Positions 33,634-34,927 of a DNA stretch of 34,927 nt are shown in pieces. The notes below the pieces were generated by a model. The model did not search any database and was not told the DNA's origin. It saw only the letters and a list, made by a program, of their open reading frames with translations. The DNA is from an uncultured Bacilli bacterium (GTDB lineage Bacteria > Bacillota_I > Bacilli_A > RF39 > UBA660). The stretch spans positions 1-34,927 of the forward strand of contig CANRDD010000006.1 of the NCBI GenBank assembly GCA_947629305.1, read 5' to 3'. The first letter of the stretch is position 1. The number at the start of each line of letters is the position of its first letter. Made by a program: the position numbers and the translations under genes.

Positions 33634-33669
33634 AAAAACTGAAGGATTATAAATAATTCTTCAGTTTTT
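33634..33669. terminator. bidirectional terminator between rplL and the XRE gene
   Basis: AAAAACTGAAG and CTTCAGTTTTT form a perfect 11-bp stem with T-runs in both directions. The XRE stop codon lies within the right arm. Confidence 0.9.
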
Positions 33670-33867
33670 ATAATCAATATTTTTAATAAATTTTATAATA
33701 TCAGAATCACTAAATTTTAAAATAATTAATAATTTACATATAGTTGAAAATTTAGCATTATTATAATTACCATTTTCTATTCTAAATAAATTACGCCAAG
33801 ATATATCACACAATTCCGCTAATTGTTCTAAAGTATATCCTCTTTTTAATCTATATTTTTTTAACAT
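33661..33867 (-). CDS. small XRE-family HTH repressor
   Basis: A 68-aa protein, essentially a single Cro/CI-type helix-turn-helix domain: LKKYRLKRGYTLEQLAELCDISWRNLFRIENGNYN and then TICKLLIILKFSD. The start is placed at ATG 33867, with AGTGAT just upstream; a GTG three codons earlier is within that site. It is divergently oriented to the surface-protein gene at 34000. The intergenic region holds TGTCAT/ATGACA elements at 33888-33893, 33913-33926 and 33970-33985, placed on both promoters. This suggests it represses both itself and the neighbour. Confidence 0.88.
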   Translation of the reverse strand: MLKKYRLKRGYTLEQLAELCDISWRNLFRIENGNYNNAKFSTICKLLIILKFSDSDIIKFIKNIDYKN

Positions 33868-33898
33868 AATTATCACTATGCCAATTATGTCATAAAAA

Positions 33899-33927
33899 TT
33901 TATATTCTAGTATGTCATACATGACAA
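33899..33927 (-). promoter_or_regulatory. promoter of the XRE gene
   Basis: On the minus strand: TTGTCA (33927-33922), 17-base spacer, TATAAA (33904-33899). The -35 box is part of the TGTCAT-AC-ATGACA inverted repeat. Confidence 0.65.
33913..33926. promoter_or_regulatory. inverted-repeat operator TGTCAT-AC-ATGACA
   Basis: A perfect 6-bp inverted repeat with a two-base spacer, overlapping the XRE -35 box. A related ATGAC-N6-GTCAT (33970-33985) covers the transcription start of the surface-protein gene, and a TGTCAT half-site is at 33888-33893 near the XRE start. Confidence 0.6.
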
Positions 33928-33936
33928 AATTTATAA

Positions 33937-33965
33937 TTGTAATTTATTTTGTTATGCTTTATAAT
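33937..33965 (+). promoter_or_regulatory. promoter of the surface-protein gene
   Basis: TTGTAA (33937-33942), 17-base spacer, TATAAT (33960-33965). The operator-like ATGAC-N6-GTCAT begins four bases after the -10 box. Confidence 0.75.
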
Positions 33966-33999
33966 TAATATGACACACAAGTCATAAGAGGTTGATGAT

Positions 34000-34927
34000 A
34001 TGAAAAATAAGAATTTAGCATTAGTTATAGTTACAATAGGTGTCCTCTTAGCATCTATAATTGGTGCAACATTTGCTTATTTTGCAGCTCAATTAGGTGA
34101 TGGAGCAGAATCGGATATTAATGCCTCTTCAGGAAGAATAGAATCATTAATGTTTGAAAAAACAGGTGATATTAGTATTACTGCCGATCAAACAGACTTT
34201 TATGATGGTGCTCCTGATAAATATGGTGAAGCAAGTGTTAAAGCTATTCTTACTCCATCTGATGTTAAAAAACAAGCTGAAAGAACTTATAATGTTTATT
34301 TTATTGTTGATGATAATGATTTTATTTATTCAACCAAAGAAGAAAAGAAACCTGAATTAATATTACAAATTAAAAATCCAAAGGGTAATATTGTAAAGAA
34401 TATTCCTGGTTTAACTTATATAGAAGACAAAGAAGGTTTTGATATTACTGAGAAAAGAACAATGGCATTTAAAATAGCTGAGAATTATGATATAAAAGCA
34501 ACAGATGATAAACCAACAACCCAAGAATGGCAAATAAAAGTAACCTTAGTTAATTTACCAACAAATCAATATGAAAATGCTGGGAAAACTTTCAGAGGTA
34601 GAATCCAAATAACAACAGATGATCAAGAAACATATAAATTAATTAATGTAAATAGTATAACCCCAGATAAAGACTGGCATAGTATAACAGCTACGACAAA
34701 TATAGATGAAGGAACAGCTGATGTTGATAAATATTATTTTGCAATCGAAAAAACAAATGAAGAACCAGCCACAATGTCTTTTAGAACTATTGCTGAAAAT
34801 TTAAGTTATACCTATCATGAAAGTTCAGATAATAATTATACATTTAAGACATTAGATGATGGAAGTGAATTAGAACCAAATCAAAATTATAAAATATATA
34901 GTTATGTCATAGATAAAGAAGGATATA
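34000..34927 (+). CDS. TasA/CalY-like surface protein with SipW-type signal sequence (3' truncated by window end)
   Basis: The frame runs from ATG 34000 to the window end, at least 309 residues, with no stop. The N-terminus has KNKNLA, a hydrophobic stretch and IIGATFAYFAAQLGD, the (G)TFAYF-type signal seen on SipW-processed proteins such as TasA and camelysin. About 290 residues follow that are Thr/Asp/Asn/Lys-rich and beta-like, with an NLxPNxNYKIYSYVID-like end suggesting a fibronectin-III-type or fibre domain. AAGAGGTTGATGAT precedes the ATG. It is divergent from the XRE repressor, with shared operator elements, and probably depends on the SipW-like peptidase at 18671. Other frames in this stretch are fortuitous. 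Confidence 0.88.
   Translation, partial: MKNKNLALVIVTIGVLLASIIGATFAYFAAQLGDGAESDINASSGRIESLMFEKTGDISITADQTDFYDGAPDKYGEASVKAILTPSDVKKQAERTYNVYFIVDDNDFIYSTKEEKKPELILQIKNPKGNIVKNIPGLTYIEDKEGFDITEKRTMAFKIAENYDIKATDDKPTTQEWQIKVTLVNLPTNQYENAGKTFRGRIQITTDDQETYKLINVNSITPDKDWHSITATTNIDEGTADVDKYYFAIEKTNEEPATMSFRTIAENLSYTYHESSDNNYTFKTLDDGSELEPNQNYKIYSYVIDKEGY

Follow-up and report, generated by a model that had tools for sequence, protein, structure and literature searches.

Small autoregulated XRE proteins with a divergent target are an already known kind of switch. SinR of Bacillus subtilis has an XRE DNA-binding domain, is described as repressing biofilm matrix genes and binds inverted repeats; its residues 74-111 are given as the tetramerising part, a SinI-binding C-terminus (PMC3163267). 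The cytolysin repressor of Enterococcus faecalis, CylR2, represses a divergent operon for an exported product, and its own promoter overlaps that of its target. CylR2 is reported to work together with a peptide signal and CylR1, which is a membrane protein (PMC3709268). Controllers of the C.Esp1396I type are described as small, single-domain XRE dimers with several quasi-symmetric operators and autoregulation, and C proteins as activating from OL and repressing from OR (PMC4041747). XRE paralogs that have radiated and are linked to adhesion have been described for the Caulobacter holdfast adhesin (PMC10688885). The vlhA and Vpma genes of mycoplasmas are multigene surface families in small genomes that undergo expression switching, and the vlhA promoters carry GAA repeats (PMC6258824, PMC2268961).

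The window analysed here is one whole contig, C6, of 34,927 nucleotides, from G000, a 1.14-Mb, 93.6%-complete genome of an uncultured Bacilli bacterium. At the right end of the contig, 132 bp lie between an XRE gene and a divergent surface gene (Table 1). rplL and the XRE gene are convergent, and the XRE gene stands alone on that side without an operon partner. An initial annotation, made from the letters of this DNA, described the XRE as a 68-aa single-domain protein, which was confirmed by translation, by a score against HTH_3 (PF01381) of 36.7 bits (cut-off 23) that places it in the XRE/Cro-CI (HTH_3) family, and by an AlphaFold model with five helices (mean pLDDT 90; final helix, residues 54-67). 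The recognition helix is DISWRNLF, of the class that we call W below. The ATG at 33867 agrees with the N-terminus of relatives; a GTG in the same frame lies at 33876. Searched alone against the PDB sequences, the XRE gave no match. TAL-effector repeats topped the profile search of the PDB with the XRE and were taken as repeat artefacts.

Table 1. Positions in the window of the XRE module and of the SipW-type signal peptidase gene
Feature	Position	Strand	Remarks
SipW-type (Ser/His) signal peptidase, 250 aa	18662-19414	+	TIGR02228, 102 bits (cut-off 51.85); SGSM...THRI read in the sequence
XRE/Cro-CI-type repressor gene, 68 aa, stop included in the span	33661-33867	-	translation, Pfam HTH_3, model, orthologs
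Operator O4, ATGACATAATTGGCAT	33878-33893	-	at the XRE start; one mismatch to ATGACA-N4-TGTCAT
Possible XRE promoter, TTGTCA-N17-TATAAA	33899-33927	-	read in the sequence; absent from the scan list
Operator O3, perfect inverted repeat TGTCATACATGACA	33913-33926	.	over the presumed XRE -35 region
Surface-gene promoter, TTGTAA-N17-TATAAT	33937-33965	+	promoter scan, 10/12 consensus positions; consensus match alone
Operator O1, ATGACACACAAGTCAT (ATGAC-N6-GTCAT)	33970-33985	+	presumed transcription start of the surface gene; one mismatch to ATGACA-N4-TGTCAT
Surface gene (P0002), cut by the contig end	34000-34926	+	hydrophobic N-terminal helix with SipW-type GATFAYFAAQ motif

Three sites in the gap all fit one operator, TGNCA-N4-TGNCA. 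Since TGTCA and TGACA are mutual reverse complements, TGTCAT-N2-ATGACA and ATGACA-N4-TGTCAT are both instances of this motif. The initial annotation had placed a perfect inverted repeat on the XRE -35 box and ATGAC-N6-GTCAT at the start of the surface gene, and both were found (O3 and O1), the -35 box itself being presumed. What it took for a half-site near the XRE start is a full operator with one mismatch (O4). O1 starts 4 bp past the -10 box of the surface promoter; in several relatives, O4 directly adjoins the XRE ribosome site. Two promoters with 17-base spacers had also been proposed. The one for the surface gene was returned by our promoter scan, which is weak evidence, as 12 promoter-like matches were obtained compared to 6.0 (sd 3.0) in shuffles. 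The one for the XRE gene can be read in the sequence and is left out by the scan rule, which asks for T at position 6. No -10 or -35 of the XRE gene was conserved among relatives in an alignment judged by eye, so the XRE promoter is a candidate only, its exact position unproven, and the repressing position of the XRE-side sites depends on the assumed promoter. With that promoter, both XRE-side sites lie where they would repress.

Within the window, the only copies of TGNCA-N4-TGNCA with no mismatch are O3 and O4. With one mismatch, one of the eight window copies falls in the gap, and copies with at most one mismatch number 10 compared to 5.3 expected. TGTCATACATGACA has a single exact copy in the 1.14-Mb genome. 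When the 190 bp preceding the XRE start were shuffled by dinucleotides, 2 of 20000 rounds produced one. The same 190 bp contain three sites with at most one mismatch, against a shuffle mean of 0.08, and three were reached in 1 of 5000 shuffles.

The sites are conserved in relatives, one of the points on which the initial annotation had staked its reading. For class W (recognition helix ISWRNL), we compared 12 intergenic regions, nine from the genus (including G000) and three from other GTDB genomes. They contain 40 sites with at most one mismatch, whereas 500 shuffles gave 1.0 on average (sd 1.0, never more than 5), and the enrichment peaks only at spacing 4, other spacings giving at most 9 sites. 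The geometry is fixed. O4 is present in 12/12 at -25 to -28 from the XRE ATG, and the O3-O4 distance is 34 bp in all 12 and also in G012:C2, a locus described below. Counterparts of O1 lie at -115 to -127 in six of the other 11 regions; O2 and O1 occur further upstream in part of the set, and O2 is absent from G000. In the class-W alignment, mean information per column is 1.44 bits for O3, 1.91 for O4 and 0.85 between them. Counts exclude G019:C1 and G001:C28, which have no start codon close to where one is expected, G019:C54, which is partial, and G016:C41, which holds the remaining half of the gene split from G016:C27; the class and cargo counts also exclude a second XRE on contig C30 of G000.

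An XRE search across 288 genomes of the order found 23 with a match at E <=1e-14, in nine of 102 genera. Eighteen matched genomes lie outside the genus; 15 loci were taken from them and two (L179 and L182, which repeat L055 and L056) were removed, leaving 13 held-out loci from other genera that were unused in defining the motif. These contain 34 sites compared to 0.8 (sd 0.9) in shuffles, at least one in every locus. Judged by eye, O3 or O4 is at the expected place in 12 of the 13, the exception being L193, and the 34-bp pair is present in seven. In one locus, L186 (G205), the ortholog XRE is cut short by a TGA after 23 residues and its divergent SipW-like gene is open; this strain is possibly a natural derepressed one. 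The XRE gene of G016 is split across the ends of two contigs (G016:C27 and G016:C41), and several of the sibling surface genes of G000 (on C6, C21, C3, C26, C42, C39 and C30) end at contig edges; both are expected, because repeats break assemblies.

The genus holds a cluster of related single-domain XREs, whose classes we named W, P, N and D, and the sites match the XRE class. Exact GACA-N4-TGTC was present in 9/12 of class W (Fisher p 0.001), GACA-N5-TGTC in 8/11 of class P (helix.RQ.Q; p 1.6e-5) and CACGGT-N6-ACCGTG in 6/7 of class N (helix NTRT; p 8e-6), related loci being treated as independent in each test; class D has two members only. Because operators differ between paralogs that differ in the recognition helix, each XRE is probably specific for its own sites. 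There are two exceptions. G009:C11 combines a P-type helix with an N4 site of the W kind. G012:C2 combines an N-type helix with W-type sites and has no surface gene, which may have been lost or may never have been present; since the C-terminus of its XRE resembles class W, its recognition helix was possibly swapped. We also considered a one-residue insertion after the class-W helix as the determinant of operator spacing and dropped it, as classes N and D share the inner spacing of W without the insertion and only P differs. Directly behind the P-type XRE on C30 of G000 lies the second small XRE of the family (L049 1421-1618; recognition helix LNSETIKNIE), a possible heterodimer partner.

The protein encoded across the gap, P0002, was modelled with a beta-rich domain (residues 49-205) followed by a partly modelled fn3-like domain (mean pLDDT 74.8). 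The best-listed structural matches were mainly fn3 for residues 210-309 (Z ~7) and Bd1399 for residues 48-207 (Z 7.1), a possibly unspecific range; TasA was not among the matches listed, which is not counter-evidence to TasA. Foldseek with this model returned nothing usable, and a PDB sequence search with a profile of 17 surface proteins gave nothing significant. P0002 scores 12.1 bits against TIGR04088 (SipW-dependent signal peptide; cut-off 19), a model that matches 7/17 related proteins at E 0.1 (best 0.0054). The TasA/camelysin model PF12389 does not match P0002 at E 0.1 and matches one of the 17 related proteins (E 0.0081). G000 has two TIGR02228 matches over the cut-off; one of them is in the window, ~15 kb from the module and outside an operon with it, and is the likely processor of the surface proteins. 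The hydrophobic GATFAYF helix, the weak matches of 7/17 relatives and the two SipW-type peptidases together make the SipW-type label for the surface protein likely but not proven.

A divergent gene that looks surface-type, its product anchored in the membrane or secreted, is present in 28 of 32 modules, 18 with WPxxGYxFN, eight with the SipW-type FAYF and two (L055 and L057) assigned by eye; the modules without such a partner are G009:C11, G012:C2, G019:C48 and G016:C27. Some cargos have fn3, GLUG or DUF6273 domains, the DUF6273 matches being below cut-off. In the held-out set, 8/9 visible partners are surface-like and six of these SipW-like, as judged by eye. At the rplL position, the XREs of G000 and G010 are 76% identical and their cargos unrelated (BLASTP E 0.82), and most other class-W members of the genus adjoin umuC/yolD-like genes (named by eye). 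Since G000 and G010 have similar XREs and the same rplL position but not the same cargo, and most other class-W modules of the genus lie elsewhere, switch and cargo are exchanged separately. In most class-W members of the genus (L036-L039, L041, L043 and L051), umuC-like and YolD-like genes lie downstream of the XRE behind a CGAAC-N4-GTTYG-like box that we take to resemble the Bacillus SOS box. The proposal of an XRE switch over a SipW-type surface gene is thus supported by sites that are conserved, lie at repressing positions under the presumed promoter and co-vary with the recognition helix, and the surface partner is SipW-type in some relatives only.

We consider it likely, on these comparisons of sequence, that the 68-aa XRE is a local, sequence-specific autorepressor that binds TGNCA-N4-TGNCA as a dimer and holds both promoters down, and that it is one of a family of modules with their own operators and exchangeable surface proteins. 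An XRE dimer would fill O3 and O4 and shut its own gene, and XRE at O1 would shut the divergent surface gene. The modules sit at several chromosomal places, and their specificity would have diverged among classes W, P, N and D. We infer dimer binding, repression rather than activation and the order in which the sites would be filled, and suppose a putative relieving signal. The initial annotation had further suggested that expression could be bistable. Autorepression alone tends to give steady, not bistable, expression, and two states would have to come from an antagonist, from cooperative activation or from outside input. At this locus, no antagonist, positive loop, cooperative activation or outside input was visible.

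Bistability would be allowed by a switch of the controller (C-protein) type, in which XRE at low level, bound to one site, activates its own promoter or that of the surface gene, and XRE at high level represses. C.Esp1396I and C.BclI (~80-aa, single-domain) are close structural matches of the XRE, and the lack of a conserved -35 of the XRE gene speaks in its favour. However, with either reading of the promoter O3 lies on the -35 region instead of preceding it, O3 and O4 are separated by 34 bp rather than adjacent, and the core of the G000 surface promoter is good and needs no activator. No restriction or methylase gene was recognised by eye among the ORFs neighbouring the XRE. We therefore regard activation of this kind as rather unlikely, and favour autorepression from private sites.

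The location of the sites bears on how far this repression would reach. Exact ATGACA-N4-TGTCAT was counted 14 times in 30 genomes of the genus, compared to four times for the reversed pattern as a control. Twelve of the 14 copies precede these XREs, and the other two (G019:C33 and G025:C22) are inside or beside unrelated genes. With at most one mismatch, the motif occurs at three places in G000, two of them in this gap (control, 5). A genome-wide regulon was rejected, as TGTCAT-N2-ATGACA with up to two mismatches is not enriched (50 compared to 65 in the control). The genome scan for further sites that the initial annotation proposed thus found almost none elsewhere in G000, and as judged from these counts the XRE appears to be a local private switch, not the head of a regulon.

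The same annotation had likened the locus to SinR control in miniature, which, taken literally, would mean a biofilm master regulator with several matrix genes, scattered boxes and relief by an antagonist. The logic of a repressor over a SipW-type surface gene holds, a SipW-type peptidase is present, and the XRE has the DNA-binding domain of SinR among its nearest matches in structure and in sequence. Membership does not hold. The three near matches in the genome, two of them in this gap, argue against scattered boxes. The XRE ends after helix 5 in the model, so that its 68 aa lack a SinI-like oligomerisation part, the SinI-binding C-terminus described as tetramerising SinR (PMC3163267). It scores 19.8 bits against the SlrR equivalog NF046032 (cut-off 250), and no SinR model was among the matches listed. 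SinR has a GTTCTYT box at several promoters, whereas this XRE acts at one locus and none of the 22 GTTCTYT matches in the window lies within 33868-33999; the SipW-type gene is also ~15 kb off and outside the operon. As for a nearby SinI, ORFs of at least 60 aa were considered: only 52 bp separate the end of rplL from the XRE stop, and no gene fits between the XRE and the surface gene, the far side of which is past the contig end. A SinR-type master regulator is a quite improbable reading of this locus.

Still harder to uphold is the view that a prophage or other mobile element left its immunity region here, its Cro/CI-like repressor still on the old divergent promoter and the surface gene a mere neighbour. 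The small size of the XRE, the divergent promoters and the presence of several operators do recall a phage, and the location of the module varies between genomes. But its neighbours are housekeeping genes (rplL, umuC/yolD and others), no integrase or phage gene was recognised by eye in the listed surroundings, and the surface partner recurs in 28/32 modules and at 8/9 held-out loci with a visible partner, making a relic very unlikely. Chance inverted repeats in AT-rich DNA can practically be dismissed: near matches to the looser motif are common in the window and the two-mismatch form is not enriched genome-wide, but chance does not account for the conservation, the fixed spacing, the shuffle test in G000 or the 34 held-out sites compared to 0.8.

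P0002 has 16 further matches in G000. The gene on C30 is 94% identical in DNA to the surface gene of the window over the compared coding stretch and lies under the P-type XRE, and the two loci do not align upstream of the start. A 130-bp leader recurs instead at about ten sibling loci, and its TA tract measures 13, 15 or 17 nt. The places with this leader are on C15, C19, C39, C3, C21, C57, C4, C49, C5 and C45 (L120, L123, L132, L126, L122, L121 and L171-L174), mostly before SipW-type surface genes of the family of the window's gene; G010:C19 (L178) has the same kind of tract. The tract is uninterrupted, lies between TTGCAT-like and TATACT/TATAAT-like boxes and varies in length in 2-bp steps only, which is the pattern that promoter-spacer slipped-strand phase variation would produce. 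Downstream of it, the presumed 5' leader RNA contains an inverted repeat, CTAGGAAA...TTTCCTAG, and folding z-scores in three copies are -3.4, -2.0 and -0.6. On C21, a sibling surface gene that is 93% identical (L122 5180-5330) has part of its N-terminus missing and its frame from the ATG broken, and appears to be a copy that has decayed or is silent. Divergent XRE-like genes from outside the XRE family described here accompany two further SipW-type surface genes in G000 (L124 3-593 on C42 and L127 4480-5163 on C26). More speculatively, a whole family of uncultured Bacilli might carry orthogonal one-gene switches, with helices and operators diverged in step and one exchangeable surface protein each, such that the cells of a strain show different surfaces and, in G000, one protein family falls under two independent variegation systems (XRE and TA-tract); we regard this as possible, though short of probable.

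The modules offer a testable regulatory code that runs from XRE class to operator to the surface gene controlled, in uncultured Bacilli whose surface biology is nearly unknown. They also supply naturally occurring, very small pairs of repressor and operator in three or more specificities, with which repressor divergence and the exchange of cargo under a conserved switch could be studied. A literature search, judged from its result listings, found no description of a family of XRE modules that each combine private operators with an exchangeable surface protein. The vlhA and Vpma systems involve different proteins and mechanisms, and the TA-tract leaders here belong to sibling genes, not to the XRE module. 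The Caulobacter XREs regulate a common gene set and interact, whereas here each XRE appears to own private sites. In size and layout, the nearest described system is CylR2, followed by the C proteins and then SinR. The C.Esp1396I-type controllers are a close fold match; here, however, the operators are not adjacent and activation is not indicated. CylR2 is likewise a single-domain XRE, of 66 aa compared to 68 aa here, with a divergent gene for an exported product and sites in the shared promoter region. It has CylR1 as a partner, whereas none is seen beside this XRE, whose gene stands alone. CylR2 is also one system, whereas the XRE described here belongs to a family of modules with changing cargo.
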